From contig NZ_JASHJL010000049.1 of assembly GCF_030733205.1 (NCBI RefSeq), positions 1 to 40,207 of the forward strand: DNA of 40,207 nucleotides, given 5' to 3'. Each line of letters opens with the position of its first letter. Within the stretch, counting starts at the first letter, position 1. The notes beneath the pieces are model-generated. The model was not told the origin of the DNA, did not search any database, and saw nothing but the letters and a program-made list of their open reading frames with translations. The DNA is from Mameliella sp. MMSF_3455. Its GTDB lineage: Bacteria; Pseudomonadota; Alphaproteobacteria; Rhodobacterales; Rhodobacteraceae. A program made the position numbers and the translations under genes. Below are positions 4,239-30,482 of the stretch, one piece after another.

Positions 4239-5645
4239 CTATTCCGCCGCCTTCGTCCGCCAGCTGTCGGCATAGTTCTCGCGGGCTTCCTTGGCATAGG
4301 GCGTGGGCGAGACGCGCACCCGGATCTCGGCCTGCTTGTGCTTTTCGGTCGATGTCTTGGCGGTATCGTCCGGCTCGCCCCAGCGCAGGGTCAGCACGTC
4401 GCCCACCTGCACGTCTTTGTGCACCACCCCCAGCGACAGCATGCAGCGTTCGTTCCAGCTATAGCCGTTGAACATCGACATGCCGACCATCTGGTCGCCC
4501 TGCATCACCATGTCGGCGCTGGACGAGGCATAGTTGGGCTGCGGAAAGTCGATCCATTTGTAGGGTGTGCCCTCCTCGAAACCGCTGGCGATGACTTTCA
4601 GCACATCCTCGCGGTTCCATTCAAAGGTCACCTTCTTGCGGTGGGCGCCTTCGGCCTTGATCTTTTCCAGTGCCGCCTTGCCGATGAAATCGTCCTTCTT
4701 CCAGCCGATGTAGAAATCATAGCCCAGTTCGAACGGGTTGACGTAATAGTCCTCGATGTTTTCGCTGACAAAGCTGCCGCCGATGGCGCCCGCCGCCTCG
4801 TACATGTCGGCGCCCAGCCAGTCGCGGTAATCCGCCAGCATCCCGTCGCCCGTGTAGATGCCGGGCAGGGGAGAGGGGATCCAACCGGATTCCAGCGTGT
4901 TGGTCGAATAGGCGCGGCTGCCGCATTGCACGATGTCCACGCCGGCCTCTGTCGCGGACTCCAGGATCACCGAGTGGATGTAGTCCTTGTCCTTGTAGGG
5001 GCCCCAGACCTCCAGCCCCGGCGCGCCGGACATGCCGTGGCGCAGTGCCTGCACCTTCTTGGAGCCGATGTTGATCCAGTCGACGTGAAAGAACTTGATG
5101 TCGGGGATCGGTCCGCCATTCATCTTCTCGAAGATCTTGTAGGCCTCGGGCCCCTGGATCTGATAGCGGTAGTGCTCGCGCAGCACGCGCTCGCCCTCGG
5201 GGCGCGATGGCGACCGGGGGTCGTGGCGAAGGCGCACGTTCCACTTGCCCCAGGCCGCGGCGAACATCAGCCAGTTCGAAGTCGGCGCCCGGCCGACGAG
5301 GATATACTTGTCTTCGCGCTCGCGGAAAATGATGTGGTCGCCGATGACATGGCCGTTGGGGGTGACCGGGACAAAGTGCTTGGCCCGGTTCAGGTCGAAA
5401 TTGGCGAAGGAGTTGATGCCGTGATGCGACAGGAACTCCGTCGCCTGCGGGCCTTCGACGATGACCTCGTCCATGTGGTGGCTCTGGTCGAACAGCACCG
5501 CGCTTTCGCGCCAGGCGGCCTGTTCATTGCGCCAGTTCTGGAATTCCGGCGTCACCACGGGGTAGACATACATCCCGGCCTGGCTGTTGCGCAGCATCTC
5601 GACCGGAGTGTTCCACGTCTTCATCGCGTCGTTCAGACTGGGCAT
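4239..5645 (-). CDS. LigM/DesA-like tetrahydrofolate-dependent aryl O-demethylase
   Basis: 468 residues, matching LigM (vanillate) and DesA (syringate) O-demethylases of the GcvT/aminomethyltransferase fold. These move an aryl methyl ether carbon to tetrahydrofolate, giving 5-methyl-THF and a phenol. Residues that act in LigM are all present near the same positions: Q54 and H57 in FDQSHH, R119 in VGRAP, Y246 in GSRAY. The motifs EMLRNSQAGMYVYPVV and NTLESGWIPSPLP are close to LigM. ATG 5645 has GAGAGG upstream. It lies 31 bp after the GntR gene and upstream of a TRAP importer, which suggests uptake and demethylation of a methoxylated acid. The substrate could differ from vanillate; plain GcvT and DmdA fit less well. 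Confidence 0.85.
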   Translation of the reverse strand: MPSLNDAMKTWNTPVEMLRNSQAGMYVYPVVTPEFQNWRNEQAAWRESAVLFDQSHHMDEVIVEGPQATEFLSHHGINSFANFDLNRAKHFVPVTPNGHVIGDHIIFREREDKYILVGRAPTSNWLMFAAAWGKWNVRLRHDPRSPSRPEGERVLREHYRYQIQGPEAYKIFEKMNGGPIPDIKFFHVDWINIGSKKVQALRHGMSGAPGLEVWGPYKDKDYIHSVILESATEAGVDIVQCGSRAYSTNTLESGWIPSPLPGIYTGDGMLADYRDWLGADMYEAAGAIGGSFVSENIEDYYVNPFELGYDFYIGWKKDDFIGKAALEKIKAEGAHRKKVTFEWNREDVLKVIASGFEEGTPYKWIDFPQPNYASSSADMVMQGDQMVGMSMFNGYSWNERCMLSLGVVHKDVQVGDVLTLRWGEPDDTAKTSTEKHKQAEIRVRVSPTPYAKEARENYADSWRTKAAE

Positions 5646-8280: not shown

Positions 8281-8322
8281 AATCTCGTCCGTCATGTTAG
8301 CGTTTCCGCAATGGAGGCTGAC

Positions 8323-9510
8323 ATGACACACCGATTCCTGACCCATCTGACCGAGACCCTGAGCCAGATCGAGGCCGACGGCATGATGAAGCGCGAGCGC
8401 CTCATCAGTTCGCCGCAGGGCGGTGAGATCATGGTCGATGGCGAGACGAAGATCTGCCTTTGTGCCAACAACTACCTTGGCCTGGCCGATCATCCCGACC
8501 TGATCGCTGCGGCCAAGGCGGCGATGGAGCCGAAGGGCTACGGCATGGCCTCCGTCCGGTTCATCTGTGGCACTCAGGACCTGCACCGAGAGTTGGAGAC
8601 CCGGCTGGCGAAATTTCTGGGCAAGGATGACTCGATCCTCTTCGCGGCCTGTTTCGATGCCAATGGCGGGCTTTTCGAGCCGCTGTTGGGGCCGGAGGAT
8701 GCCGTTATCTCGGACGCGCTTAACCATGCCTCGATCATCGACGGCATCCGCCTGTGCAAGGCGCGGCGCTATCGCTATGCCAATTCCGACATGGCGGACC
8801 TGGAGGCGCAGTTGAAACAGGCGCGCGCGGATGGTGCGCGGTTCATCATGATCGCCACCGATGGTGTTTTTTCGATGGATGGCTACCTTGCCAAGCTGCC
8901 AGAGATCACGGCGCTGGCAGACCAATACGATGCGCTGGTCATGGTGGACGACTGCCACGCGACCGGCTTCATGGGGCCGCAGGGGCAGGGGACGCCGGCG
9001 CATTGCGGGGTCGATGTCGATATCCTGACCGGCACGCTGGGCAAGGCGCTGGGAGGCGCCATTGGCGGCTACATCGCCGGGCCGCAGCCAGTGATCGACC
9101 TGTTGCGTCAACGCGCGCGGCCCTACCTGTTTTCCAACGCGCTGCCGCCGGCGGTCGTGGCCGCGGGGATCGAGGCCATCCGACTGGTCGAGGAAGGCGA
9201 CGATCTGCGGGCGCGACTTTTCGACAATGCCGCCTACTGGCGCGCGGGCCTGACGGATCTGGGGTTCGACCTGCTGCCGGGTGAGCATCCGATCATCCCG
9301 GTCATGCTGGGCGAGGCGAAACTGGCGCAGGAAATGGCATCGCGGCTGTTCGAGCGGGGTGTCTATGTCTCGGGTTTCTTCTTTCCGGTGGTGCCCAAGG
9401 GACAGGCGCGCATCCGCACGCAGATGAGCGCCGACTTGACGCGCGAGCATCTGGACAAGGCGCTGGCAGCCTTTGCCGAGGTGGGCCGAGAGTTGGGAGT
9501 GATCCGATGA
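8323..9510 (+). CDS. kbl: 2-amino-3-ketobutyrate CoA ligase (glycine C-acetyltransferase)
   Basis: 395 residues, close to E. coli Kbl (398). An alpha-oxoamine synthase that cleaves 2-amino-3-oxobutyrate with CoA to glycine and acetyl-CoA. PLP lysine K241 in [17 protein letters not shown] (~209-216), and the substrate-site stretch [11 protein letters not shown] near residue 50. The start at 8323 uses GGAGG five bases upstream; an ATG at 8311 would place that site inside the gene. The end overlaps tdh by ATGA, so the pathway pair is translationally coupled. Confidence 0.96.
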
Positions 9511-10547
9511 AAAGCAACCAGATGAAAGCGCTTGTGAAAGCAAGACCCGAGGAAGGCCTGTGGATGGAGCGCGTGCCGGTTCCCGAGATCGGACCGGATG
9601 ACGTGCTCATCAAGATCAAGGCGACGGGCATTTGCGGGACGGATATCCATATCTGGAACTGGGACGACTGGGCGCAAAAGACCGTGCCGGTTCCCTTGGT
9701 GACGGGGCATGAATTCGCCGGCGAGATCGTCGAGATCGGCCGCAACGTGGATGACCTGACCATCGGTCAGCGCTGCAGCGGCGAGGGGCATTTGATCGGC
9801 AAGCACTCGCGCCAGTCACGGGCCGGCAAGTTCCATCTCGACCCCGAAACGCGGGGTATCGGCGTGAACGAGCAGGGGGCCTTTGCCCAATACCTGCGCC
9901 TGCCGGCCTTCAACGTGGTGCCGTTGCCGGACAGTATCCCGGACGAGATCGGGGCGATCCTCGATCCGCTGGGCAATGCGGTGCACACGGCGCTGAGTTT
10001 CGATCTCGTCGGAGAGGACGTGTTGATCACCGGCGCGGGGCCCATCGGCATCATGGCCGCGGCCGTCGCGCGGCATGTCGGCGCCCGGCACGTCGTGATC
10101 ACGGATGTGAACCCTGACCGGTTGGCGCTGGCGGCGCAGGTGGCGGACGTGGTGCCGGTGAATGTTGCGGAGGAAGACCTGAAGGATGTCGAGGCGCGGC
10201 TAAAGATGAAAGAGGGCTTCGACGTGGGTCTTGAGATGTCCGGAAACCAGCAGGCGCTGGACCAGATGGTCGAGACGCTGGTGATGGGCGGGCGCGTCGC
10301 GCTGTTGGGCATTCCGCCGGGCAAGTCGCCGGTCGACTGGTCGCGCATCGTCTTCAAGGCGATCACGATCAAGGGGGTCTATGGGCGGGAGATCTTCGAA
10401 ACCTGGTACAAGATGATCGCCATGCTGGAAAACGGCCTGGATGTCAGCCGGGTCATCACGCATCGGTTCCCTGTCGACAGTTTCGAAGAGGGCTTTGCGG
10501 CGATGAAATCGGGCAAGTCCGGTAAGGTGGTGCTGGACTGGGCGTGA
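9507..10547 (+). CDS. tdh: L-threonine 3-dehydrogenase lacking the structural zinc site
   Basis: 346 residues, zinc-dependent medium-chain dehydrogenase oxidising L-threonine to 2-amino-3-oxobutyrate with NAD+, the step before Kbl. The catalytic zinc site is intact: C43 (GICGTD), H68 and E69 (GHEF). The Rossmann motif GAGPIG is present, and [12 protein letters not shown] matches E. coli Tdh. The structural-zinc loop is altered: the four cysteines of E. coli Tdh align with G98, S101, S104 and D112. The rest of the loop and its length are kept, so this is not a frameshift. Confidence 0.95.
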
Positions 10548-10629: not shown

Positions 10630-12033
10630 TCAAACGGCGTAGCGCGTCGCGCCGCGCCGGTTCTCGTCCACCGGTTCGGAAAGGACCACCGCCTGGTGCG
10701 CGCGCTGATCGCAGTTGGCGCGGGGGCAGACCCGGCAGTTGATGCCGATCTCGGCCGCATGGGGGCGCCGGACGTTCAGGTCCTCGGCGTAGCCGATGCT
10801 GCCGACGTGTTCCATCGCGCAGCCCATCGCCACCGCCAGCCGCACGTCCTGCCTGTGGCGGGCAAAGCTGGGCCGGTCCACCGTGCGGGCAAAGACGAAG
10901 AACTGTGATCGGTCGGGCATCTCGGCCACCTGCGGCAGAATCAGGCCCGGTGTCCGGAAACAGGTGTGCACTTCCAGCCGGGGGCAGGCACCGCCGTATT
11001 CGGCCAGGTGAAAATCGGTCGAGTTGAATCGCTTGGTGACGTTTCCGGCCTTGTCGATCCGCAGGAAGAAGAACGGTACGCCGCGCGCTCCGCTGCGTTG
11101 CAGCGTGGTGGCGCGGTGGCAGGCCTGTTCGAAGCTGACGCCGAACCGCGTGGCCAGGTGGTCGAAGTCGTACTTGCTCTCCAGCGCCTCGGCGAGAAAG
11201 CGGTCATAGGGCATCAGAACGGCGGCGGCAAAATAGTTGGCCAGCTCGACCCGGCAGCGGGCGCGCCCCTTGGCATCGGTCAGGCCGCTGCGGCCCAGGA
11301 TGTCGTCCAGCAAGTCCTTCTGTTCCACCAGCGCCGCGACATGGACCAGCTGGAACACCCGGTTGGGATGGTCCAGTGCCTCGGACAGGCGGACCTCGCG
11401 GCGCTCGTCGTCATATTCCCTGAGCGAGGTCGGCATCTCGGCCACCGGCACCAGCCGCACCCGCAGGTCCAGCCGGTGCCGAAGGCGCAGTTTCAGCGCG
11501 GGGTAGATGTCGTCGGGCGCGACGTTCTCGCCGAACCAGAACCCTTCGGCGGCCTGTTCCAGGGCCTCGAAGTGGTTGCGGTTGCTGCGGAAAAAGTTGT
11601 GCACCACGGCCTCGGAGGTCTGCGGCAGGACGCGCTGCCCGGTCTCGCCGGAGCTGGCCACGCTCATCAGCTGGTCATTCGTCGCCATGAAGGCGCGGTG
11701 CAGTTTCAGAAAGCAGGCGGCGAGGTCGGGGCTGTGCGCCAGCGCGGCGCGCAGTTGCGGCAGATCGGGGCGGGCGCCTTCGAACAACGGGTCCTGAAGG
11801 ACGCCGCGGATGTCGGCCAGTTGCGCCGTGTCGTCGTCCTCGGCGATGTCGCGCCAATCGACGCCATAGGCCTCGAACAGCTTGAGCAGGACCGGGACCG
11901 ACACGCTGCGCTCGTTCTTTTCCAACAGGTTCACGTAAGAGGTCGAGATGCCCAGGCGCTTGGCCATCTGCACCTGGGTCTGGCCGTGTTCGATGCGCAG
12001 GCGGCGCAGGCGGGGTCCGATGAAGGTCTTCAT
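10630..12033 (-). CDS. ScfR-family (PccR/RamB-like) short-chain acyl-CoA regulator
   Basis: 467 residues: XRE HTH at ~8-62 (VQMAKRLGISTSYVNLLEKNER), an IrrE/ImmA-like DUF955 region (~155-330; LVHVAALVE, ELANYFAAAVLMPYDRFL) and a C-terminal cysteine-bearing domain (CAMEHVGSIGYAEDL, INCRVCPRANCDQR) typical of short-chain fatty acyl-CoA regulators. Members control propionyl-CoA, glyoxylate or methylcitrate genes. The gene is divergent from sgaA-mclA-mtk-meh-mct, so that operon is the likely target. The upstream repeats of ATTTTACA are candidate operators. The ligand is probably an acyl-CoA (inference). Confidence 0.88.
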   Translation of the reverse strand: MKTFIGPRLRRLRIEHGQTQVQMAKRLGISTSYVNLLEKNERSVSVPVLLKLFEAYGVDWRDIAEDDDTAQLADIRGVLQDPLFEGARPDLPQLRAALAHSPDLAACFLKLHRAFMATNDQLMSVASSGETGQRVLPQTSEAVVHNFFRSNRNHFEALEQAAEGFWFGENVAPDDIYPALKLRLRHRLDLRVRLVPVAEMPTSLREYDDERREVRLSEALDHPNRVFQLVHVAALVEQKDLLDDILGRSGLTDAKGRARCRVELANYFAAAVLMPYDRFLAEALESKYDFDHLATRFGVSFEQACHRATTLQRSGARGVPFFFLRIDKAGNVTKRFNSTDFHLAEYGGACPRLEVHTCFRTPGLILPQVAEMPDRSQFFVFARTVDRPSFARHRQDVRLAVAMGCAMEHVGSIGYAEDLNVRRPHAAEIGINCRVCPRANCDQRAHQAVVLSEPVDENRRGATRYAV

Positions 12034-12036
12034 GGT

Positions 12037-12101
12037 ATTTTACAGTATACTAAATTTTACACTTTGACAATTTTCCATGTTTGTAAAATCTCGCATTTAC
12101 A
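12037..12101. promoter_or_regulatory. ATTTTACA repeats and divergent promoters, ScfR/sgaA
   Basis: ATTTTACA occurs at 12037-12044 and 12054-12061, inverted as TGTAAAAT at 12082-12089, and as ATTTACA at 12095-12101. A TTGACA at 12064-12069 could be the -35 of sgaA; TATACT on the minus strand (12049-12044) could be the -10 of the regulator. The repeats bracket these elements, as expected for ScfR control of both directions. Exact promoters are not certain. Confidence 0.55.
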
Positions 12102-12174
12102 GCAGGACCCGGCTTTGTTTCCGGTTGCTGAATGTCTGGCGCATGGTGGCGCTCAACCGCAAGGGAGGAGCACC

Positions 12175-13377
12175 ATGCGCACCGGACAGACCCATCTTTT
12201 CATCCCCGGCCCGACCAATGTGCCGGAGGTCGTGCGTCAGGCGATGAATGTCCCGCAGCAGGACATGCGCGCCAGTGATTTCGGCGAGTTGACCCTTGGC
12301 CTGTTTTCCGACCTCAAGCGCGTGTTCAAGACCGCGACCGGCGAGGTGATGCTGTTTCCGGGCTCTGGCACCTCGGCCTGGGAGGCGGCGATCACCAACA
12401 CGCTGAACCCGGGCGACAAGGTGCTGATGGCGCGCTATGGCCAGTTCTCGACGCTCTGGGTCAAGATGGCAGAGATGCTGGGACTGGAACCCGTCGTCGT
12501 CGATCTGCCCTGGGGCGCCAGCGCGCCGGTGGGCGAGTTCGAGCGCATCCTTGGCCGCGACGTGCATGACGAGATCAAGGCGGTCTTCGTCACCCACAAC
12601 GAGACCGCGACCGGCGTCGTGTCGGACGTGGCGGCGGTGCGCCGGGCACTGGACAGCACCTTTCACGACGCGCTGCTCTTTGTCGACGGTGTCTCTTCGA
12701 TCGGGTCGATGGAGTTCCGCATGGACGACTGGGGCGTCGACCTGGCCGTGACCGGCAGTCAGAAGGGCATGATGATGCCGGCGGGGCTGGGCATCCTGGG
12801 GGTCAGCCAGAAGGCGCTGGAGGCGTCGAAGACGGCCACCATGCGCCGCGCCTACTATGATTTCGCCGACATGCGGGCCTTCAACGCCGATGGCTACTTT
12901 CCCTACACGCCGCCGACGCCGCTGCTGCACGGGTTGCGCGCGTCGCTGGACCGGATCTTTGCCGAGGGGCTGGAGGCGGTCTTTGCCCGCCATGCCCGCC
13001 TGGCCGAGGGTATCCGCCGGGGCGTGCAGGCCTGGGGGCTGGAGCTGGTGGCCGAACACCACAGCTATTACTCGGATACGGTCAGTGCGGTCCGCGTGCC
13101 CGCAGGCGTGGATGCGCGCGAGGTGTTGCGCATTGCTTATGACGATCTCAACGCCTCTTTCGGGTCTGGTCTGGGCCGGTTGAACGGCAAGGTCTTTCGC
13201 ATCGGTCATCTTGGCGATTTCAACGAGGGCATGGCGCTGACCGCGCTGAGCCTCGCCGAACTGGCCCTGATGCGGGCGGGCGCCGCCGTGGTCCCCGGCG
13301 CGGGCGTCGGTGCGGCGCAGGCCTGGTTCGCGGGCGGTGCCGAAACCCGGCAGCCCTTCGCGGTGGCCGCCGAGTAA
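12175..13377 (+). CDS. sgaA: Serine--glyoxylate aminotransferase
   Basis: 400 residues, fold-type I class V aminotransferase of the SgaA/AGXT type. It transfers the amino group of serine to glyoxylate, giving hydroxypyruvate and glycine, a serine-cycle step. N-terminal LFIPGPTNVPEVV, PLP-phosphate loop FPGSGTSAWEAA (~61-72), HNETATGV (~141), DGVSSIG (~171), PLP lysine K197 in GSQKGMMMPAG. The start at 12175 has AAGGGAGG upstream. First gene of a six-gene operon; an 87-bp spacer with a nested stem-loop separates it from mclA. Confidence 0.94.
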   Translation: MRTGQTHLFIPGPTNVPEVVRQAMNVPQQDMRASDFGELTLGLFSDLKRVFKTATGEVMLFPGSGTSAWEAAITNTLNPGDKVLMARYGQFSTLWVKMAEMLGLEPVVVDLPWGASAPVGEFERILGRDVHDEIKAVFVTHNETATGVVSDVAAVRRALDSTFHDALLFVDGVSSIGSMEFRMDDWGVDLAVTGSQKGMMMPAGLGILGVSQKALEASKTATMRRAYYDFADMRAFNADGYFPYTPPTPLLHGLRASLDRIFAEGLEAVFARHARLAEGIRRGVQAWGLELVAEHHSYYSDTVSAVRVPAGVDAREVLRIAYDDLNASFGSGLGRLNGKVFRIGHLGDFNEGMALTALSLAELALMRAGAAVVPGAGVGAAQAWFAGGAETRQPFAVAAE

Positions 13378-13393
13378 CCCCATCCCGACACCC

Positions 13394-13437
13394 GGGACCA
13401 TTTGAACGCGCCTCCCCAAGGGGGCGTGGCCGGTCCC
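13394..13437 (+). other. Nested stem-loop between sgaA and mclA
   Basis: An outer pair GGGACC (13394-13399) / GGTCCC (13432-13437) encloses an inner hairpin CGCCTCC (13409-13415) / GGGGGCG (13420-13426). No T-run follows. It probably affects mRNA processing or partial attenuation between sgaA and the rest of the operon. Confidence 0.5.
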
Positions 13438-13464
13438 CTCATGCTTTGAAGAAAGGTAAACCTC

Positions 13465-14424
13465 ATGTCCCACACGCTGCACCCGTTGCGCAAACAGCGT
13501 CTGCACCGCTCTGAACTGGCTGTGCCCGCCTCGAACCCCGCGATGGTCGAAAAGGCCGCCGACAGCGCCGCCGACTACGTCTTTCTGGACCTCGAGGACG
13601 CGGTGGCGCCGCCGGAAAAGGACCAGGCGCGCAAGAACGCGGTCGAGCTGCTGAACGACATCGACTGGGCCGGCAAGGGCAAGACGGTGTCGGTGCGGAT
13701 CAACGGGCTGGACACGCATTACATGTACCGCGACGTGGTCGACATCATGGAAAAGGCCGGTGACCGGGTCGAGACGCTGCTGGTGCCCAAGGTGGGCGTG
13801 CCAGCGGACCTCTACATGGTCGAGGCGATGATCAACCAGATCGAACAGGCCTGCGGCCTGACCCATCGCGTGGGGCTGGAGGCGCTGATCGAAACCGCGC
13901 TGGGCATGGCCAATGTCGAGGCCATCGCGCAGTTCGGCGGGCGGCTGGAGGCGTTGCATTTCGGCGTGGCCGATTACGCGGCCTCGATGCGGGCGCGCAC
14001 CGTGAACATCGGCGGTCTGAACCCGGATTATCCGGGCGATCAGTGGCATGCCTCGATCACCCGGATGGTCATTGCCTGCCGCGCCTACGGGCTGCGCGCC
14101 ATCGACGGACCCTTTGGCGATTTCGCGGACGGGCCGGGCTTTGTCGCTGCGGCGCGCCGTGCCGCGGCCCTGGGCTGCGAGGGCAAATGGGCCATCCACC
14201 CCAGCCAGATCGCCATGGCCAACGACGTCTTCAGCCCGCCCGAGGCCGAGGTCTCCAAGGCCGAACGGATCATCGAGGAACTCAAGGCCGCCGAGGCTGC
14301 GGGCAAGGGGGCGGCCAGTCTCGACGGCAAGATGATCGACGCGGCCAGCGAGAAGATGGCCCGCAACGTGATCGACATGGCGCAGGCGATTGCCAGCAAG
14401 GAAACCGGCATCGCCGCCGAATAA
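13465..14424 (+). CDS. mclA: Malyl-CoA lyase (MclA/Mcl1 type, CitE/HpcH family)
   Basis: 319 residues. Cleaves L-malyl-CoA to acetyl-CoA and glyoxylate in the serine cycle; homologues also condense glyoxylate with propionyl-CoA to beta-methylmalyl-CoA. Acyl-CoA lyase residues present: R78 in RINGLDT, E143 in [14 protein letters not shown]170 in [10 protein letters not shown]. The N-terminal [14 protein letters not shown] and [11 protein letters not shown] strongly resemble Methylobacterium MclA. Compared with that protein, the segment after [11 protein letters not shown] is about 20 residues shorter. With Meh and Mct downstream, it could also act as the citramalyl-CoA lyase, as the trifunctional Chloroflexus enzyme does (inference). 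Confidence 0.92.
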
Positions 14425-14447
14425 TCCGCCGAGAGGGAGGACAGAAA

Positions 14448-15623
14448 ATGGACATTCATGAACATCAGGCCAAGGAAATCCTGAAGAGCTTTGGCGTCCC
14501 GGTGCCGCGCGGCGGGCTGGCCTATTCGCCGGAACAGGCGGCCTATCGCACCCGCGAACTGGGCGGGAATGCCTGGGTCGTCAAGGCGCAGATCCATTCC
14601 GGCGGGCGCGGCGAAGTGGGCGGCGTCAAGGTCTGCAGGTCCGAACAGGAGGTGGCCGAGTTCGCCCGTGGCCTCTTGGGCCGGCAGCTTGTCACCAAGC
14701 AGACCGACGCCAACGGCAAGGGCGTCTTCCGGCTCTGGGTCGAGGAGGCCTCGGACATCGCGCAGGAACTCTACCTGGGCTTCGTGCTGGACCGAAAGAC
14801 AGAGCGCATCATGATCGTCGCCTCCGGCCACGGCGGGATGGAGATCGAGGATCTGGCCGAGGAGGATCCCGACAGCCTGGTGCGGTCGGTGGTCGATCCG
14901 GCGGTGGGGCTGGCCCTCTACCAGGCGCGCGAACTGGGGTTTCGGCTGGGTCTTGAAGGCAAGCAGGTCGACCAGTTCTCGACCTTTCTGCGGGCTTGTT
15001 ACCGCGCTTACCGCGATCTGGACGCCATGATGGTCGAGATCAACCCGCTGGTCATCACCGGCGCGGGCGATCTGGTGGCGCTGGATGCGAAAATGTCCTT
15101 TGACAGCAACGCCCTGTATAAACATCCCGGCATCGCCTCGCTGCGTGATCCGTCGCAAGAGGACCCGCGCGAGTCCCATGCCTTTGACAATGGCCTTGCC
15201 TATGTCGGGCTCGATGGTGACATCGGCTGCATCATCAACGGGGCCGGGCTGGCGATGGCCTCGATGGACATGATCCAGCTGGCCGGCGGCGAACCCGCGA
15301 ACTTCCTCGACATCGGCGGCGGCGCCTCGCCCGAGCGGGTCTGCCAGGCTTTCCGCACGGTTCTGTCGGATCAGAACGTCGCCGTGATCCTGGTCAACAT
15401 CTTCGCCGGCATCAACCGCTGCGACTGGATCGCGAAAGGGGTCATCCAGGCCTACAAGGAGGTGGGGATCGAGATCCCGGTGGTTGTGCGGCTGAGCGGC
15501 ACGAACGTCGAGGAAGGCCAGAAGATCATTCGCGAAAGCGGGCTTCCGATCATCTCTGCCGACACGCTGGAAGAGGCGGCCGAACGGGCCGTCGCCGCCC
15601 GCCCGCAATCCGCGGCAGCCTGA
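14448..15623 (+). CDS. mtkA: Malate--CoA ligase (malate thiokinase) beta subunit
   Basis: 391 residues, matching MtkA (390) of methylotrophs. ATP-grasp subunit homologous to SucC; with MtkB it forms malyl-CoA from malate, CoA and ATP. Residues 1-10 [10 protein letters not shown] start the family; [11 protein letters not shown] is the ATP-grasp loop (~47-57), [12 protein letters not shown] the metal site (~198-209), LDIGGGAS and [16 protein letters not shown] the C-terminal CoA-ligase part. The strong ribosome site GAGAGGGAGG fixes ATG 14448. Succinate specificity cannot be excluded by sequence alone, but mclA next door supports malate. Confidence 0.93.
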
Positions 15624-15635
15624 GGAGTATGCGAA

Positions 15636-16532
15636 ATGGCTATCCTGATTGATGAAAATACCAAGGTCGTTGTCCAGGGCCTTTCCGGCCGGATCGGGCA
15701 GTTCCATGCCCAGGAAATGATCGAATACGGCACGAGGGTCGTTGCCGGCGTCACGCCCGGCAAGGGCGGCAGCACCGTCCTGAACCGCCCGGTCTTCAAC
15801 ACCGTGCGCGAGGCGGTGGAGCAGACCGGGGCCGAGGCGAGCCTGCTGTTCGTGCCACCGGCCTTTGCCGCCGACGCGATGATGGAGGCGGCGGATGCGG
15901 GCATCCGGACGGCGGTCTGCGTGACCGACGGTATCCCGGCGCAGGACATGATGCGTGTGAAACGCTTTCTCCGCCGCTACCCGCGCGACCGCAAGATGCG
16001 CCTGATCGGGCCGAATTGCGCGGGCATCATCAGCCCCGGCAAGGGCTTCATGGGGATCATGCCGCCCGCCATCTACATGCCGGGCCGCGTGGGCATTGTC
16101 GGACGATCGGGCACGCTGGGCTACGAGGCCGCCAGCCAGATGAAGGCGCTGGGCATCGGCATTTCGTCTTCCATCGGGATCGGTGGCGATCCGATCAACG
16201 GATCCAGCTTCAAGGACATCCTGGAACTCTTTGAAAACGATCCGGAAACCGACGCGGTGATGATGATCGGAGAGATCGGAGGCCCGCAAGAGGCCGAGGC
16301 CGCCGCCTATGCCCGCGACCACATGACGAAGCCGGTCGGCGCCTATATCGCGGGCCTCGCCGCGCCCAAGGGGCGGCAGATGGGCCACGCCGGCGCGATC
16401 ATCAGCGCCTTTGGCGAGAGCGCGCAGGAAAAGGTCGAGATCCTGTCGTCGGCCGGGATCACCGTGGCGCCGAACCCCTCGGCGATGGGACGGACGATGG
16501 CCGAGGTGCTGGGCCTGAAGGCCGCGGCATGA
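15636..16532 (+). CDS. mtkB: Malate--CoA ligase (malate thiokinase) alpha subunit
   Basis: 298 residues, SucD homologue. N-terminal CoA-binding Rossmann fold (VVVQGLSGRIGQFH, ~11-24), LIGPNCAGIISPG (~123-135), VGIVGRSGTLGYE (~152-164) and the phosphorylated histidine H251 in QMGHAGAI. It carries the phospho-enzyme chemistry for malyl-CoA synthesis. Starts 12 bp after mtkA and overlaps the next gene by ATGA. Confidence 0.93.
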   Translation: MAILIDENTKVVVQGLSGRIGQFHAQEMIEYGTRVVAGVTPGKGGSTVLNRPVFNTVREAVEQTGAEASLLFVPPAFAADAMMEAADAGIRTAVCVTDGIPAQDMMRVKRFLRRYPRDRKMRLIGPNCAGIISPGKGFMGIMPPAIYMPGRVGIVGRSGTLGYEAASQMKALGIGISSSIGIGGDPINGSSFKDILELFENDPETDAVMMIGEIGGPQEAEAAAYARDHMTKPVGAYIAGLAAPKGRQMGHAGAIISAFGESAQEKVEILSSAGITVAPNPSAMGRTMAEVLGLKAAA

Positions 16533-17398
16533 GCGCCGCGTCCCTCATGGAGCCGGACTATACCAACTGGATCGGTCGCAGCGAGACCCGCGAGGGGGGC
16601 GTCACGCCCAACCTCGCGGGGATGCTGAACGCCGCCGTCAGCCACGACCTGTCCCCGGAGCGCGATGTGCGCCCGGGGATGGAGTTGCCAAGTCTTTGGC
16701 ATTGGGTCGCTTTTCCGGAATTCGTCCCGATGAGCGACCTGGGGGAGGACGGACACCCGGCGCTGGGCGGCTTTCTGCCGCCCTTGCCCTTCCGCCGCCG
16801 CATGTGGGCGGGCGGGGACGTGCGGTTTGGTGGTGTGCTCCACGTCGGCGAGCGGCTGACCAAGGTCTCGACCATCCGGGCGGTGACCCAGAAAGACGGC
16901 AAGACCGGGCCGATGGCCTTTGTCACCGTCGATCATGTGACCACCGGAGACAAAGGCGGCGTGATCGAGGAAGAGCAGAACATCGTCTATCTCGACATTC
17001 CGCCGGTCTTCCGTCCGCCGCGCCAGATGGCGGTCCCCGAACGCTTGGCCTACGATGAGCGCGTCCCGATGAACGAGGTTCGGCTTTTCCGTTATTCCGC
17101 AGCGACTTACAACGCACATCGCATCCACTATGACCTGCCTTACGCGCAGCAGGTGGAGAAATACCCGGCGCTTGTCGTGCATGGCCCCATGCAGGCGACC
17201 ATGGCGATCGAGGCCGCCGAACGGCACACGGGCAAGCGACCGTCGCGTTTCACCTACCGGGTGGTGCACCCGATGTTCCATGACGCCGACCTGCGTCTTG
17301 TGGGGGCATTGGACCCTGCGGGCGGGGCCATCGAGGTCGGGACGGCCACCTTCGAGGACTACCTTGGCCTGCAGGCAAGAATGGAGTGGACGGCATGA
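16529..17398 (+). CDS. meh: Mesaconyl-C4-CoA hydratase-like protein (MaoC/HTD2 family)
   Basis: 289 residues with two hot-dog halves: an N-terminal dehydratase-like domain (~10-155) and a C-terminal MaoC-like domain (~165-285) with FRYSAATYNAHRIHYDLPYA and LVVHGPMQATMAIEA. This plan fits mesaconyl-C4-CoA hydratase, which makes citramalyl-CoA in the 3-hydroxypropionate bi-cycle, and related 3-methylfumaryl-CoA hydratases. The call rests largely on the neighbour mct, which supplies that substrate. Coupled by ATGA overlap on both sides. The symbol is provisional. Confidence 0.75.
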   Translation: MSAASLMEPDYTNWIGRSETREGGVTPNLAGMLNAAVSHDLSPERDVRPGMELPSLWHWVAFPEFVPMSDLGEDGHPALGGFLPPLPFRRRMWAGGDVRFGGVLHVGERLTKVSTIRAVTQKDGKTGPMAFVTVDHVTTGDKGGVIEEEQNIVYLDIPPVFRPPRQMAVPERLAYDERVPMNEVRLFRYSAATYNAHRIHYDLPYAQQVEKYPALVVHGPMQATMAIEAAERHTGKRPSRFTYRVVHPMFHDADLRLVGALDPAGGAIEVGTATFEDYLGLQARMEWTA

Positions 17399-18633
17399 GC
17401 GGCATTCTGGACGGTATGCGGGTGGTCGAAAGCTCGGCTTTCGTGGCGGTGCCCCTGGCGGGCATGACACTGGCCCAGATGGGCGCGGACGTGATCCGTT
17501 TCGATCTGCCGCAGGGCGGGATGGATTATAAACGTTGGCCTGTAACATCCTCCGGGGAAAGCCTTTTCTGGGCCGGAATGAACAAGGGCAAACGCTCTGT
17601 CGCGCTGGACGTGAAATGCCCGCGCGGGCGTGAGATCGCACAGGAAATCATCTGTGCCCCGGGTGAGGACGCGGGGTTGTTCATCACCAACCTCGCCGCG
17701 CAGGGCTGGACCGACTACGAAACGCTGAAGGCGCGGCGCAAGGATCTGTGCATGGTCTCGCTGCGCGGCGACCGGCACGGGAAGCCGGCGGTGGATTACA
17801 CCGTGAATCCCAGCCTGGGCTTTCCGATGGCGACGGGTCCGGAAGGGTCGTCCGACCCGGTGGCCCATGTCCTGCCGGCGTGGGACTGCATCGCCGGCAA
17901 CATGGTGGTATCTGGCCTATTGACGGCGGAAAGATTGCGTTTTCGCAAAGGGTTGGGGCAGTTTGTTGATCTGACGCTGAAGGATGCGGCGGCGGCGATG
18001 CTGGGCAATCTTGGCATCATCGGAGAGGTTGCGGTCAACGGCACCGACAGGGCCAGGGCGGGCAATTCGCTTTATGGGGCCTACGGGCAGGATTTCGTCT
18101 GTGCCGATGGCCGGCGCGTCATGGTGATTGCCCTGACCCCGCGCCAGTGGAAAAACCTGATGAAGGTCACCGGCACCGAACAGGACATGGGATACCTGGC
18201 GGCGCGACTTGGCGTCGATCTGATGCAGGAAGGGACCCGCTGGACCTATCGCGCCGAGATCACAAAAGTGCTAGCTCCGTGGTTTGCTCGGCGCAAGGTG
18301 CGCGAGTTTGCATCGGATTTCGACAAGGGCGGCGTGACCTGGTCGCAGTTCCGCAGCTTTGCCCAGGCGCTGCGCGAGGATGCGGACCTGACGCCCGAGA
18401 ACCCGATGTTCGCGGAAATCGAGCAGCCGGGGATCGGTCGCTACCCTGTGCCCGGTTCGCCGTTCAGCTTTGCCGGGCTCCCGCGCGAAGTGCCGCGTCC
18501 CGCGCCGCACTTGGGTCAGCACACCGAAGAGGTCCTGGCCGATGTGGCGAAACTGCCGGAAGGTGAGATCGGCAAGCTGATGGACGAAGGCGTGGCGGTT
18601 CAGCCGCGCGGCGATTTCCGGCTGGCCTCGTGA
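17395..18633 (+). CDS. mct: Mesaconyl-CoA C1-C4 CoA transferase (2-methylfumaryl-CoA isomerase)
   Basis: 412 residues, family III (CaiB/BaiF) CoA transferase. It resembles the Chloroflexus Mct across its length as I recall that sequence: SAFVAVPLAGMTLAQMGADVIRFD, DYKRWPVT, SLFWAGMNKGKRS, ICAPGEDAGLFITN, VDYTVNP and HVLPAWD. D164 in PAWDCIAGN aligns with the nucleophilic aspartate of the family. It moves CoA within mesaconyl-CoA from C1 to C4. ATG 17395 overlaps the meh stop. Last gene of the operon; a clear terminator follows. Confidence 0.88.
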   Translation: MSGILDGMRVVESSAFVAVPLAGMTLAQMGADVIRFDLPQGGMDYKRWPVTSSGESLFWAGMNKGKRSVALDVKCPRGREIAQEIICAPGEDAGLFITNLAAQGWTDYETLKARRKDLCMVSLRGDRHGKPAVDYTVNPSLGFPMATGPEGSSDPVAHVLPAWDCIAGNMVVSGLLTAERLRFRKGLGQFVDLTLKDAAAAMLGNLGIIGEVAVNGTDRARAGNSLYGAYGQDFVCADGRRVMVIALTPRQWKNLMKVTGTEQDMGYLAARLGVDLMQEGTRWTYRAEITKVLAPWFARRKVREFASDFDKGGVTWSQFRSFAQALREDADLTPENPMFAEIEQPGIGRYPVPGSPFSFAGLPREVPRPAPHLGQHTEEVLADVAKLPEGEIGKLMDEGVAVQPRGDFRLAS

Positions 18634-18695
18634 AAACCGCCAATTGAAATGGTGGTCGGAGTGCACCCGGCCAAACAATGGAGCTGGCCATAACG

Positions 18696-18726
18696 CCCCG
18701 GGAAGCCACGGTTTCCCGGGGTTTCT
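18696..18726 (+). terminator. Terminator of the sgaA-mct operon
   Basis: Perfect 9-bp arms CCCCGGGAA (18696-18704) and TTCCCGGGG (18713-18721), 8-base loop, followed by TTTCTGCG. It lies between the mct stop and the convergent oxyR stop. The T-tract is short but the stem is very strong. Confidence 0.75.
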
Positions 18727-18729
18727 GCG

Positions 18730-19638
18730 TCAGTGGAGCGCCAACCGCCCGGCCATCGCGGCGCTGCGCACGGTTTCCGAGAAACGGCGGAATTGTTCGG
18801 ACAGGGGGCTGGAACTGCGCCAGACCATGCCGATGGTGCGTGTCGGTTGCGGCTCGGCGAAGCGGGCGATGGACACACGGGCGGCGGGCGTTTCGACGGG
18901 CACCGCCATCTCCGGGATGAGGGTCACACCCAGCCCGGCGCCGACCATCTGGACCAGCGTCGTCAGCGACGAGCCGTCCAGCCCGTCGCGCGGCGTGGCG
19001 GAACTCAGCTTGCAGAAGCTCAGCGCCTGGTCACGGAAACAATGCCCCTCTTCCAGCAGCAGCAGGCGCATCTTTTGCAGCGCCTCGCCGTCCGGCACCG
19101 GCGCGTCCGCCTCGGTCTCTGGCCGGACAAAGACGAAACTTTCGTCGAAGAGCGAGACTTCGTGCAGGCCGGCCTCGCCGACGGGCAGGGCGAGGATCGC
19201 GGCGTCTATCTTGCCCTCGTGCAGTTCCACCAGCAGCCGGGGTGTCAGCGTTTCGCGCACATGCAGGTCAAGCCCGGCGTGGTTGCGGTTCAACTCGGCA
19301 AAGAGGGCAGGCAGCAGGTAGGGCGCGACGGTCGGGATCACGCCCAGCCGCAACCGGCCCACAAGGTCGCCTTGTGCGGCGCGGGCCAGGTCCTCGAACT
19401 CGTCCACGGCGCGCAGGATGTCGACCGCCCGGCTGAGGCAGGCTTCTCCGAGGGCGGTCAGCCGCACCTGCCGCGCGCCGCGTTCGAAGAGCGGCGCGCC
19501 AAGGTCCGCCTCCAGATCGCGGATCTGCACCGACAGCGCCGGCTGCGAGATCGAACAGGCCGCGGCCGCGCGTCCGAAGTGGCCGTGCCGGGCCAGCGAT
19601 TCGAAATAGCGGAGTTGGCGGAGAGTCAGATTTTTCAT
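18730..19638 (-). CDS. oxyR: OxyR, LysR-family peroxide sensor
   Basis: 302 residues. LysR HTH at ~3-62 (FGRAAAACSISQPALSVQIRD) and effector domain ~90-295. The redox pair C200 and C209 is present in GHCFRDQALSFC, aligning with C199/C208 of E. coli OxyR. Hydrogen peroxide would oxidise these to a disulphide and activate transcription. Divergent from katG, its usual target. The start has AAAGTTATGG-type spacing upstream with GGGGAAA as a plausible ribosome site. Confidence 0.95.
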   Translation of the reverse strand: MKNLTLRQLRYFESLARHGHFGRAAAACSISQPALSVQIRDLEADLGAPLFERGARQVRLTALGEACLSRAVDILRAVDEFEDLARAAQGDLVGRLRLGVIPTVAPYLLPALFAELNRNHAGLDLHVRETLTPRLLVELHEGKIDAAILALPVGEAGLHEVSLFDESFVFVRPETEADAPVPDGEALQKMRLLLLEEGHCFRDQALSFCKLSSATPRDGLDGSSLTTLVQMVGAGLGVTLIPEMAVPVETPAARVSIARFAEPQPTRTIGMVWRSSSPLSEQFRRFSETVRSAAMAGRLALH

Positions 19639-22066: not shown

Positions 22067-22275
22067 GTTTGGTCGCCGGGACGGGACTGTTTGCGGCTGC
22101 GCCGCAAAGGCGCCCGCCCGCCGACCCGTTTGGACGGGCTGCGCCTGTTTTCGGTGTCCAGGGAACTCGGGAGCAAGCTGAGCGCCGGGTGTGTCGGCGC
22201 CTGAAATGTTACCGAATACTACCTAGTGCGAAATCGTGTAACTTTTCCTTGCGCGAATCTCCGCGTTCCCGTATT

Positions 22276-22296
22276 CCGACCGTGTGGTCGATTAAT
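22276..22296 (+). promoter_or_regulatory. Candidate TetR operator in the paa operon promoter
   Basis: CCGACC-GTGT-GGTC-GA-TTAAT. The arms CGACC/GGTCG flank a 4-base spacer, and the downstream TTAAT could be part of a -10. It matches the element in front of the TetR gene (31283-31303) at 15 of 15 fixed positions (CCGACCnnnnGGTCnnTTAAT). Further upstream, TGTTAC (22206-) and GTGTAAC (22236-) form a spaced inverted repeat of unknown meaning. Confidence 0.65.
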
Positions 22297-22312
22297 GGGA
22301 GGAGTGTCGGTC

Positions 22313-23515
<1,203 letters not shown>

Positions 23516-23540
23516 AGTCTATCAGCAGGGAGGCTCTGCA

Positions 23541-24518
23541 ATGTATGCACAGATGATCAAGTCGGAGGCGACGCAGGAAGACCCCGAGAAGCTTGCCGCC
23601 TTCCAGGCCCGCATCGACGCGGGCGAGAAGATCGAGCCCAAGGACTGGATGCCGCAGGGCTATCGCAAGACGCTGATCCGCCAGATCGGCCAGCACGCGC
23701 ATTCCGAGATCGTGGGCCAGCTGCCAGAGGGCAACTGGATCACCCGCGCACCCACGCTGGAACGCAAGGCGATCCTGCTGGCCAAGGTGCAGGACGAGGC
23801 AGGGCATGGCCTGTACCTTTATTGCGCGGCGGAAACACTGGGCGTGACGCGCGATGAACTGACCGAGATGCTGCTGGACGGGCGGATGAAATACTCGTCC
23901 ATCTTCAACTATCCGACGCTGACATGGGCCGACATGGGCGCGGTCGGCTGGCTGGTCGATGGCGCGGCGATCATGAACCAGGTGCCGCTTCAGCGGACGT
24001 CCTTTGGCCCCTATTCCCGCGCGATGATCCGGATCTGCAAGGAAGAGTCGTTCCACCAGCGGCAGGGCTACGACATCATGATGAAGATGGCGAACGGCAC
24101 GCCCGCGCAGAAGAAGATGGCGCAGGATGCGCTCAACCGCTTCTGGTATCCCTCGCTGATGATGTTCGGCCCCTCGGACAAGGAATCCGTGCACTCCGAG
24201 CAGTCGATGGCCTGGAAGATCAAGATGAACACCAACGACGAGTTGCGCCAGAAGTTCGTCGACCAGACGGTGCCGCAGGCGGAATACCTTGGCCTGACCG
24301 TCCCGGACGAGAACCTGAAATGGAACGAGGAGACCGGGCACTACGATTTCTCGCAGCCCGACTGGTCCGAGTTCTTTGACGTCCTGAAAGGCAACGGCCC
24401 GTGCAACCGCGAACGCCTGGCGGCGCGGAACAAGGCCTGGGACGATGGCAAATGGGTGCGCGACGGGCTCTTGGCCCATGCCGAGAAGAAGGCCGCGCGC
24501 CGGGTTGCGGCAGAGTAA
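23541..24518 (+). CDS. paaA: 1,2-phenylacetyl-CoA epoxidase, catalytic subunit PaaA
   Basis: 325 residues. Diiron monooxygenase subunit that epoxidises the ring of phenylacetyl-CoA. Strong agreement with E. coli Paa[20 protein letters not shown] (ligand E), [11 protein letters not shown] (ExxH), WLVDGAAI (D) and [12 protein letters not shown] (ExxH). GGGAGG lies before ATG 23541. Followed by a membrane-protein gene rather than directly by paaB. Confidence 0.97.
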
Positions 24519-24528
24519 GAGAGACCCG

Positions 24529-24927
24529 ATGGAAGCCCCCAATCCCCTCCTGCGCGGCCTGCTGTTGCTCTGCGTGGCTTTCTTTGCCTGCATGGGGGCG
24601 GCGCATTTCTTCCGGCTGAAGATCCCTGTCCTGTTCGTGTACTGGGATCCGCCGTTCTACGCCTACCAGGACAAGATCATCGCCTTCACGCTGGTCACCT
24701 ACATGGCGCTGTTTTTCGGGGCTGCCCGGCACAGAATCATGGTGCCCTACGCGCTTGTCTCGATCTGGGCCACCGTGGGTGGGCTTGCGCTGGTGAACCT
24801 GTCCGACGCCCTGGCGCAGGTGCTGAACGGCGGGGGCACGCTGGCCTACTGGTTGATCACTGCCGCCTTTGGCGGATTGGCCGCCGTACTGACATTGATT
24901 TGGGTCCGCGACGCACGCGCGACCTGA
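24529..24927 (+). CDS. Small four-helix membrane protein inside the paa operon, unknown function
   Basis: 132 residues with four hydrophobic stretches (~8-27, 50-65, 71-92, 104-124), so probably four membrane helices. Between helices 1 and 2 there is an aromatic loop, FRLKIPVLFVYWDPPFYAYQDK. No family recognised. It lies 10 bp after paaA and 19 bp before paaB, in frame with good coding character and its own ATG, so it is co-transcribed. A gene between paaA and paaB is not part of the E. coli or Pseudomonas layouts. Helping uptake of phenylacetate or anchoring the epoxidase are guesses only. Confidence 0.8.
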   Translation: MEAPNPLLRGLLLLCVAFFACMGAAHFFRLKIPVLFVYWDPPFYAYQDKIIAFTLVTYMALFFGAARHRIMVPYALVSIWATVGGLALVNLSDALAQVLNGGGTLAYWLITAAFGGLAAVLTLIWVRDARAT

Positions 24928-24946
24928 CACCGGAGGAGAAACGACC

Positions 24947-25285
24947 ATGAGTTCCCCCAACTCCGCCTATCCGGACACGCCGGAACAAGCGATGAAACCC
25001 AAGCGCCACGAATGGCCGCTCTGGGAGGTCTTCATCCGCGGCCAGCATGGCATGAGCCACCGCCACGTCGGGTCGCTGCACGCGCCTGACGCGGACATGG
25101 CGGTCAAGAACGCCCGCGACGTCTATACCCGCCGCAACGAGGGGGTGTCGATCTGGGTGGTCGAGGCGCGGCACATCGCGGCCTCCTCGCCCTCGGAAAA
25201 GGGGCCTCTCTACGAGCCCTCCGAGAGCAAGGTCTATCGCCACCCGACCTTCTTTGACATCCCCGAGGAAGTGGGGGCGATGTAA
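24947..25285 (+). CDS. paaB: 1,2-phenylacetyl-CoA epoxidase subunit PaaB
   Basis: 112 residues. Small non-catalytic subunit of the epoxidase: WPLWEVFIRGQHGMSHRHVGSLHAPD, NARDVYTRRNEGVSIWVV and the PSEKGPLYEPSESKVYRHPTFF-type C-terminus are characteristic. GGAGGAG upstream. Ends in TAATG, sharing one base with paaC. Confidence 0.95.
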   Translation: MSSPNSAYPDTPEQAMKPKRHEWPLWEVFIRGQHGMSHRHVGSLHAPDADMAVKNARDVYTRRNEGVSIWVVEARHIAASSPSEKGPLYEPSESKVYRHPTFFDIPEEVGAM

Positions 25286-26046
25286 TGACCCGCGACATGG
25301 CGTTTTTCGAATTCCTCCTGCGGATGGGGGACAATACCCTCGTGCTTGGTCACAGGGTGAGCGAGTGGTGCGGACATGCGCCGGTGCTGGAAGAGGACAT
25401 CGCGCTGGCCAATACCGCGCTGGACCTGATCGGGCAGACTCAGATGTGGCTGGGCCTTGCCGGAGAGGTCGAGGGTCAGGGCCGCTCTGCCGACGATCTG
25501 GCGATGCTGCGTGACGCCTGGGACTTTCGCAACGTCCTGCTGGCCGAACAGCCGAACGGCGATTTCGGCCAGACGATGATGCGGCAGTATCTCTTTGACC
25601 AGGCACATGTGCTGCTCTTGGAAAAGCTGGCCGGGTCCTCGGACGAACGGGTGGCGGCGATCGCGGCGAAATCGGTCAAGGAGGTGGCCTATCACGTCGA
25701 ACGCTCGCGCGACACGGTGATCGGTCTGGGCGACGGCACAAGCGAAAGCCACCGGCGGATGCAGGCGGCGCTGGACCTGCTCTGGCCCTACGCGGGCGAG
25801 ATGTTCACCGATGACGAGGTCAGCGGGATCATGGCGGGCGAGGGCATCGCGCCGGAGCCGTCCAGCCTGCGCGCGGCCTGGGACGCGGCGGTGCAGCAGA
25901 CCATGAGCGAGGCCACGCTGGTCATCCCCGACAGCGACTTTGCCCATGCGGGCGGCAAGACCGGGTTCCGGCATACCGAACACCTGGGCCACATGCTGAC
26001 GCAGATGCAATGGCTGCAACGGGCCTATCCGGGCGCGCGCTGGTAA
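25285..26046 (+). CDS. paaC: 1,2-phenylacetyl-CoA epoxidase structural subunit PaaC
   Basis: 253 residues, ferritin-like fold. Partner of PaaA in the (PaaAC)2 core. Visible PaaC features: LRMGDNTLVLGHRVSEWCGHAP, LANTALDLIGQ, NGDFGQTMMRQYLFD, KEVAYHVERSRDTVIGLGDGT. Start overlaps the paaB stop by one base. Confidence 0.96.
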   Translation: MTRDMAFFEFLLRMGDNTLVLGHRVSEWCGHAPVLEEDIALANTALDLIGQTQMWLGLAGEVEGQGRSADDLAMLRDAWDFRNVLLAEQPNGDFGQTMMRQYLFDQAHVLLLEKLAGSSDERVAAIAAKSVKEVAYHVERSRDTVIGLGDGTSESHRRMQAALDLLWPYAGEMFTDDEVSGIMAGEGIAPEPSSLRAAWDAAVQQTMSEATLVIPDSDFAHAGGKTGFRHTEHLGHMLTQMQWLQRAYPGARW

Positions 26047-26052
26047 ACCGCC

Positions 26053-26511: not shown

Positions 26512-26523
26512 GGAGTGAGGCCC

Positions 26524-27591: not shown

Positions 27592-27602
27592 CGGAGGCTG
27601 CC

Positions 27603-28364: not shown

Positions 28365-28429
28365 TCAAACGGGCATGAGACAGAGATTCAACGAACCGCC
28401 GGGCGCGACCGGCAGGACAGGGGGGAAGG

Positions 28430-30466: not shown

Positions 30467-30482
30467 GCGCAGACAGGAGACG

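Follow-up and report, generated by a model that had tools for sequence, protein, structure and literature searches.

The 3-hydroxypropionate bi-cycle is best known as a means of carbon fixation in hot-spring bacteria. Its second cycle, described in Chloroflexus and in partial forms in Kentron, Thiosymbion, Competibacter, Accumulibacter and Riegeria, yields pyruvate and acetyl-CoA through Mct, Meh, Mcl and Mch. Bi-cycle enzymes have been reported from the Chloroflexi, four gammaproteobacterial clades, Accumulibacter and Riegeria (PMC6593406); the bacterial group studied here is not in the distribution list in the available part of that paper. We analyzed a six-gene operon of the marine bacterium Mameliella sp. 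MMSF_3455, located at positions 12175–18633 of contig NZ_JASHJL010000049.1 (40,207 nucleotides, called the window). The operon encodes a serine/aspartate-glyoxylate aminotransferase (SgaA), a malyl-CoA lyase (Mcl), the two subunits of malate thiokinase (MtkA and MtkB), a MaoC protein resembling mesaconyl-C4-CoA hydratase (Meh) and a mesaconyl-CoA C1-C4 CoA transferase (Mct), and it lies beside a divergent gene for an ScfR-family regulator. Judging from homology and gene order, we favor, with moderate confidence, the reading that the operon is a CoA-ester-switched heterotrophic half of the bi-cycle, an acyl-CoA-responsive central-carbon module that would drain mesaconyl-CoA to pyruvate and acetyl-CoA. 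The claim covers only the second-cycle half. Like the described bi-cycle, this genome has Mct, Meh, Mcl and Mch homologues with the same predicted products; unlike it, the locus has malate thiokinase in place of succinyl-CoA:malate CoA-transferase and a single operon with sgaA beside the ScfR gene, in an organism that carries ethylmalonyl-CoA pathway genes.

Other known systems share parts of this arrangement. The sgaA-mcl-mtkAB cassettes of Sinorhizobium and Aminobacter plasmids contain the same four genes in the same order, with the same short-hairpin form of Mcl, but the two loci looked at lack meh and mct; the Aminobacter plasmid instead continues with genes annotated as a D-glycerate dehydrogenase and a DUF4147 protein, the latter presumably glycerate-kinase-like. 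The itaconate degradation cluster (Ich, RipB/RipC) shares a relative of the MaoC hydratase and the product citramalyl-CoA, whereas no itaconate CoA-transferase or Ccl was recognized in the present operon, which has Mct instead. A reductive citramalyl/ethylmalonyl-CoA pathway designed in silico (acetyl-CoA + HCO3- + 2 NADPH + ubiquinone to pyruvate, -39 +/- 9 kJ/mol; PMC10521678) likewise reaches pyruvate by way of the upper ethylmalonyl-CoA pathway followed by mesaconyl-CoA and citramalyl-CoA; whereas that pathway is presented as a design, homologues of most of its parts occur here in one natural genome, with predicted activities. Serine-pathway and ethylmalonyl-CoA genes have been described in Roseobacter strain La 6, in a paper whose available text contains neither malyl nor mtk (PMC5934484). 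No description of the operon appeared in the literature searched, a search that most subscription journals lay beyond. The way in which aerobes make pyruvate from acetyl-CoA is a key problem both in metabolism and in synthetic carbon fixation. If our reading is true, the known range of bi-cycle enzymes widens, and a pathway so far designed on paper gains ready-made parts.

The operon and its enzymes

The operon is real, conserved and recurrent. Its six genes are tightly packed on the forward strand, with the coordinates and junctions first described for them: sgaA (12175–13377, ATG start), mcl (13465–14424), mtkA (14448–15623), mtkB (15636–16532), the meh-like MaoC gene (16529–17398) and mct (17395–18633). 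The first three junctions are gaps of 87, 23 and 12 bp, and the mtkB-MaoC and MaoC-mct junctions are 4-bp ATGA overlaps. The best start of mct is the ATG at 17395, and the GTG at 17386 is disfavored, because the Met of the former aligns with the Met that opens the match to solved Mct enzymes. The enzyme identities proposed in the earlier note also hold by homology.

The transferase matches the solved Roseiflexus and Chloroflexus enzymes (7xkg/8apq) at 500 and 497 bits versus 103 bits for the next CoA-transferase, it matches TIGR04253 at 525 bits versus 105 bits for the next model, and it is 55.7% identical to Chloroflexus aurantiacus Mct. To the earlier note's question of whether it groups with unrelated CoA transferases, the scores and the tree give the same answer: it places with the Chloroflexus enzyme. 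The catalytic and carboxylate-holding residues Asp165, Arg47 and Tyr136 of the C. aurantiacus enzyme (PMC9813914) are kept as D167, R50 and Y138 in a 415-residue numbering, while Leu43 is replaced by Met; these key residues do not discriminate, because 102 of 103 aligned rows keep them (the exception is the outgroup, and the Asp is present in all 103). In the tree, which has one very long-branched outgroup, the window's clade and the Mct of mch-meh-mct-mcl clusters are separated by the branch of Chloroflexi Mct, the Mct of a Competibacter meh-mcl-mct cluster sits on the window's side, and uncharacterized Mct-like proteins branch beyond Chloroflexi Mct. Mct-like proteins at 42–53% identity adjoin long acyl-CoA dehydrogenases in Variovorax, Paraburkholderia, Ancylobacter, Sphingomonas and plasmid pAKD34, and an Azospirillum Mct-like gene lies two genes away from one. 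As a side observation, the acyl-CoA dehydrogenases beside the distant Mct-like CoA-transferases of the plasmid loci L184–L188, one of them on the IncP plasmid pAKD34, are about 550 amino acids long and could be methylsuccinyl-CoA dehydrogenase-like.

The MaoC protein belongs to Pfam family PF13452, is 96% identical to its Mameliella alba counterpart and has no NCBIfam match at E <= 0.001. Its closest solved relatives are the itaconyl-CoA hydratase structures 8huc and 8khg (179 and 176 bits), and it has the stretch FRYSA-T-N-HRIHYD in common with itaconyl-CoA hydratase. The Pseudomonas aeruginosa form of that enzyme (Ich) also hydrates mesaconyl-C4-CoA (PMC12290011). Homologous MaoC genes adjoin mct, near mch, in the loci L167 and L169–L171. 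The Mct and Meh activities are likely, and the physiology of the operon is treated as a predicted role. The same genome encodes a second Ich/Meh-like MaoC protein on contig C35 (L105, 3404–4207, reverse strand; 42% identical to Meh over 219 residues).

The remaining proteins are those of the sgaA-mcl-mtkAB cassette. SgaA has serine-glyoxylate aminotransferase 6pk1 as its closest solved protein and scores 550 bits with the BhcA model, under the cut-off of 650. Mcl is closest to the malyl-CoA/beta-methylmalyl-CoA lyase 5ugr (390 bits) and, in the alignment, keeps the residues that map to Glu141, Asp168 and Asp299 of the Rhodobacter sphaeroides enzyme, which are named in PMC3832036. The beta subunit, MtkA, passes the malate-CoA ligase model NF010647 (678 bits, cut-off 604). 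The alpha subunit, MtkB, scores as succinate-CoA ligase alpha (NF004230, 428 bits, cut-off 336), as does its counterpart in a second thiokinase cluster on contig C82, and takes its name also from its position after mtkA. Mcl of the operon type is missing about 15 residues of the beta-hairpin insertion of methylotroph Mcl; the short form is found in 32 of 53 rows (the window and 31 other loci) and also in the Sinorhizobium and Aminobacter loci (L181, L182). The short hairpin was considered as a specific mark of a citramalyl-CoA lyase and rejected, as the Mcl of those two loci has it without adjacent meh-mct.

Distribution and control

Within a family sample of 149 genomes, one per genus, Mct was matched in 21 (E <= 1e-40), 20 of them close and one (G068) of a distant type at 44% identity; the six-gene operon is present in the source genome (G000) and in three others (G024, G035 and G140). 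A phylum sample gave matches in 25 of 398 genomes at E <= 1e-80, distant types included. We examined 68 loci with an Mct hit, collected through their similarity to Mct, MtkA or Meh. All six genes are found in 21 of them, MtkB-Meh-Mct at a contig end in five, mtkB-mct in one and meh-mct only in 18; the other 23 have neither gene directly upstream, although some (L068, L167) have meh nearby, past the distance limit. Because the same six-gene order recurs in 21 loci, the window included, the operon is not a product of chance. Six-gene operons are found in records titled Natronohydrobacter and Roseinatronobacter, and in the genera with named isolates Mameliella, Sagittula, Antarctobacter and Maliponia. 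On the Mct tree, these fused operons do not form one clade: they require three label changes (gains or losses), two of them forced by well-supported branches. A single change was seen in 0% of 200 bootstrap trees and one clade was rejected (p-AU 1.3e-63), for a grouping that had already appeared in an earlier tree.

The thiokinase gene falls into two score classes, that of the window's MtkA and a methylotrophy class, and their relationships to Mct differ. The window class occurs in 12 of 21 Mct genera versus 6 of 128 others (Fisher 2.3e-8, an optimistic p-value as the genera are related), whereas the methylotrophy class, in one of 21 versus 12 of 128, does not co-occur with Mct. The association between Mct and the window class extends to genomes where the genes are unlinked. 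Six genomes (G062, G068, G104, G125, G030 and G021) have an ScfR-mtkAB unit with sgaA, mcl or both, separate from mct, and G083 has sgaA-mcl-mtkAB without a recognized ScfR gene. Co-occurrence with isocitrate lyase was also tried and dropped: PF00463 was matched in 0 of 149 genomes at E <= 1e-60, which we take as a failure of the model or threshold and from which nothing is concluded. The icl of Rhodobacter capsulatus is named in PMC10370305, so the family does hold isocitrate lyase.

The divergent gene (10630–12033, reverse strand) encodes an ScfR-family regulator of the RamB/PccR/MccR type, with an HTH_3 domain, an IrrE-like domain (PF06114) and the C-terminal ScfR domain (PF09856, 192 bits); its RamB model score of 351 bits is under the cut-off of 700. 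Between it and sgaA lies a 55-bp, two-part operator-like block (12056–12110, forward strand), which recurs in all 29 of the ScfR-sgaA intergenic regions that could be extracted, with its right half in one register and its upstream half visibly shifted in L150. The block consists of ACA repeats, then TGTAAA (in a few, TGTGAA), a TCGCATTTACAGC-like element and a (G/A)ACCC-like element. A weight matrix built from the 29 blocks, in which near relatives inflate the result, was run on 1.77 Mb of fetched loci and 3 Mb of random sequence. It found 33 sites scoring above 12 in the loci and none in the random sequence. Thirty-two sites score above 58 (81.5 in the window), namely the 29 training blocks and three new sites before the same kind of operon (L025, L151 and L154); the remaining one, at 36, is on the opposite strand of the same intergenic region, in L049.

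Among relatives of this regulator, Paracoccus denitrificans RamB recognizes a motif of two boxes and gives its strongest response to beta-methylmalyl-CoA, with an apparent dissociation constant of 700 uM (PMC10370305), and R. sphaeroides PccR controls propionyl-CoA carboxylase, as stated in PMC12632250. By analogy, the ligand of the window's regulator is probably a CoA ester from the operon's own pathway, and the conserved block is its candidate site. The regulator and the block together suggest acyl-CoA, and not C1, control. Both go beyond the earlier note, as does the idea that mesaconyl-CoA probably comes from the ethylmalonyl-CoA pathway.

Predicted route and alternatives

The predicted route has two arms. 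In the first, MtkAB would convert malate, ATP and CoA to malyl-CoA, standing in for succinyl-CoA:malate CoA-transferase, Mcl would cleave malyl-CoA to acetyl-CoA and glyoxylate, and SgaA would drain the glyoxylate to glycine. In the second, Mct would shift the CoA of mesaconyl-C1-CoA from C1 to C4, Meh would hydrate mesaconyl-C4-CoA to citramalyl-CoA, and either Mcl or a chromosomal CitE-like lyase would cleave citramalyl-CoA to pyruvate and acetyl-CoA. Mesaconyl-C1-CoA could be supplied as an intermediate of the ethylmalonyl-CoA pathway, for a net conversion of acetyl-CoA and HCO3- to pyruvate, or from glyoxylate and propionyl-CoA via Mcl and Mch in reverse. In this the operon would resemble the half of the bi-cycle that assimilates glyoxylate, and the ScfR regulator would act as the module's switch. 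The gene content points to a natural route, so far little noticed, by which acetyl-CoA or propionyl-CoA would become pyruvate.

The source genome (5.7 Mb, 111 contigs, completeness 100) contains further parts of this route. A Ccr homologue scores over its model cut-off, and close to it lies an Ecm-like mutase whose score falls short of the cut-off of the methylmalonyl-CoA mutase equivalog, as would be anticipated for Ecm. An Mch homologue (PF19315) is on contig C49 with a CitE-like gene nearby; another CitE-like gene is on C40 and an Mcl1-like gene on C73. The second half of the bi-cycle (Mcl, Mct and Meh in the window, Mch on C49) is present entirely as homologues. Nearly all parts appear to be held by a single genome of a marine group, along with a regulator of their own and an operator-like block that is sharply conserved. 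The genome look-up that the earlier note had proposed returned Mch, Ccr and Ecm-like homologues, together with an hpr-like gene on C82, and several of that note's claims can be refined. Its conversion of glyoxylate and propionyl-CoA to pyruvate and acetyl-CoA stands as possible chemistry. It had listed Mch and a citramalyl-CoA lyase as absent from the window; Mch has its homologue on C49, and a separate lyase may be dispensable, given that reversible formation of citramalyl-CoA was shown for the related Mcl of R. sphaeroides (PMC3832036). The note's proposal of glycine and serine from C1 units finds weak support: the C82 cluster is fuller, formate-tetrahydrofolate ligase (FTHFS) was not found in the source genome at E <= 1e-100, and the operon has neither hpr nor ppc.

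A broader and more tentative idea, which we hold as doubtful but worth stating, is that a complete, oxygen-tolerant conversion of acetyl-CoA and HCO3- to pyruvate operates naturally in roseobacters. It would combine the upper ethylmalonyl-CoA pathway with Mct, Meh and a citramalyl-CoA-cleaving Mcl, the operon with its CoA-ester-sensing ScfR regulator would be the exit switch, and in a few Ccr-bearing lineages without detected Mch it would replace the normal lower branch. Among Ccr-positive genomes, Mct is found in 4 of 8 without detected Mch versus 16 of 128 with Mch (p 0.017). Dropping the distant G068 Mct changes this to 3 of 8 (p 0.083), and at >=97% completeness it is 2 of 5 (G030 and G083), neither with Meh near Mct. 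The replacement of Mch by Mct is kept as a lead only. Separately, G030 and G083 possibly have an altered ethylmalonyl-CoA pathway.

It is unlikely, in our judgment, that the operon is instead a second serine-cycle operon for methylotrophic growth, to which two acyl-CoA genes were added by chance. The continuation of the Aminobacter cassette speaks for such a role, as do the finding of FTHFS in all Mct genomes but this one (20 of 21) and the precedent of a methylotrophic roseobacter with both gene sets (PMC5934484). However, the source genome has another cluster of this type on C82 (L107, 171–13246), with genes for an aminotransferase (weak family matches, no Pfam match at 1e-5), MtkA, MtkB, a hydroxypyruvate-reductase-like protein and phosphoenolpyruvate carboxylase, and with mcl, a response regulator and a trimethylamine N-oxide (TMAO) demethylase alongside. 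Of the serine-cycle parts, the window has sga, mtk and mcl, and C82 has the hpr- and ppc-like genes. The MtkA type of C82 occurs in 12 other genomes of the family sample, none with Mct, and in one fetched locus (L135) the TMAO demethylase lies beside it at high identity. The source genome is also the sole Mct genome that gave no FTHFS match, and FTHFS is common anyway (7 of 9 further genomes searched). The ScfR type of the regulator and the lack of co-occurrence between Mct and methylotrophy-type MtkA count against this alternative as well. Consequently, any methylotrophic serine cycle operating here has a fuller cluster of its own on C82, and the window operon probably serves another purpose.

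Catabolism of free C5 acids (mesaconate, itaconate or methylsuccinate), with Mct as an intermolecular CoA-transferase and the MaoC protein as an itaconyl-CoA hydratase, is distinctly improbable. The 44% identity of the MaoC protein to the P. aeruginosa itaconyl-CoA hydratase would suit it (that enzyme also acts on mesaconyl-C4-CoA; PMC12290011), and so would the long acyl-CoA dehydrogenases that adjoin the more distant Mct-like proteins. However, the succinyl-CoA:mesaconate transferase model gives 92 bits versus 525 for the isomerase model, the six genes include no C5-acid transporter and no other CoA-activating gene, and the operon is associated with Mtk and ScfR. Least credible of all is the reverse direction, from pyruvate and acetyl-CoA to glyoxylate and propionyl-CoA, as in the citramalate cycle once suggested for purple bacteria (PMC8307300). 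Reversibility of the lyase step speaks for it, but with R. sphaeroides Mcl the citramalyl-CoA : acetyl-CoA ratio reached only 1 to 2.5 despite a 200-fold pyruvate excess (PMC3832036), and, with Ccr in 20 of 21 Mct genomes, the ethylmalonyl-CoA pathway can supply the glyoxylate.

Several observations weigh against the preferred reading, a module draining mesaconyl-CoA to pyruvate and acetyl-CoA. At the protein level, Mct falls short of the curated TIGR04253 cut-off (525 vs 725 bits), and therefore we call it Mct-like and word its function as predicted; the wider Mct-like family probably has other uses, because its distant members adjoin long acyl-CoA dehydrogenases. The MaoC protein is no closer to Meh of bi-cycle clusters (44.8%) than to the P. 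aeruginosa itaconyl-CoA hydratase (44.0%), and the deep branches of the Meh tree are weak, open or long. The R. sphaeroides Mcl is a relative of the operon Mcl, whose hairpin is shorter, and the title of PMC3832036 labels it bi-functional. At the genome level, co-occurrence is uninformative for Ccr (20 of 21 genomes with Mct vs 116 of 128 without) and likewise for Mch (17 of 21, and 132 of 149 overall). Window-class MtkA is missing from 9 of the 21 genera with Mct, which means that Mct functions in its absence too, and in G144 the operon lacks meh, with mtkB followed by mct. The Ccr-positive genomes G030 and G083 (L037 and L033) have mct, but no meh in the fetched stretch around it and no detected Mch. 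At the level of control, a 27-base core pattern (<=2 mismatches) has one match in the genome, as does its reversed control, and the weight-matrix scan found no operator-like block before stand-alone meh-mct pairs; on these two results we propose no wider regulon.

Operon surroundings

A 12-pair hairpin 3' of mct (18695–18722, forward strand) is a possible terminator. Taken whole, the stretch 18634–18740 folds with a z-score of -2.4, a value matched by 4 of 200 shuffles, and the hairpin is absent from the list of a consensus terminator scan. Downstream lie an oxyR-like gene on the reverse strand and then katG. A plasmid origin of the window was considered and dropped: no plasmid record covers 80% of the operon in one place, in a search that may leave out records very near the source genome.

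Just past the ScfR gene, a kbl-tdh pair (8311–10547, forward strand), for threonine to glycine and acetyl-CoA, is also found in four related loci. Farther upstream, a vanillate/3-O-methylgallate O-demethylase gene (4239–5645, reverse strand; NF047885, above cut-off) lies beside TRAP transporter genes and could provide, close to the operon, C1 units for tetrahydrofolate. On its other side, positions 22226–31253 (forward strand) carry phenylacetate-catabolism-type genes, including a thiolase, two PaaA_PaaC genes, a Fer2/NAD-binding reductase, a PaaZ-like fusion and a PaaX-like gene.

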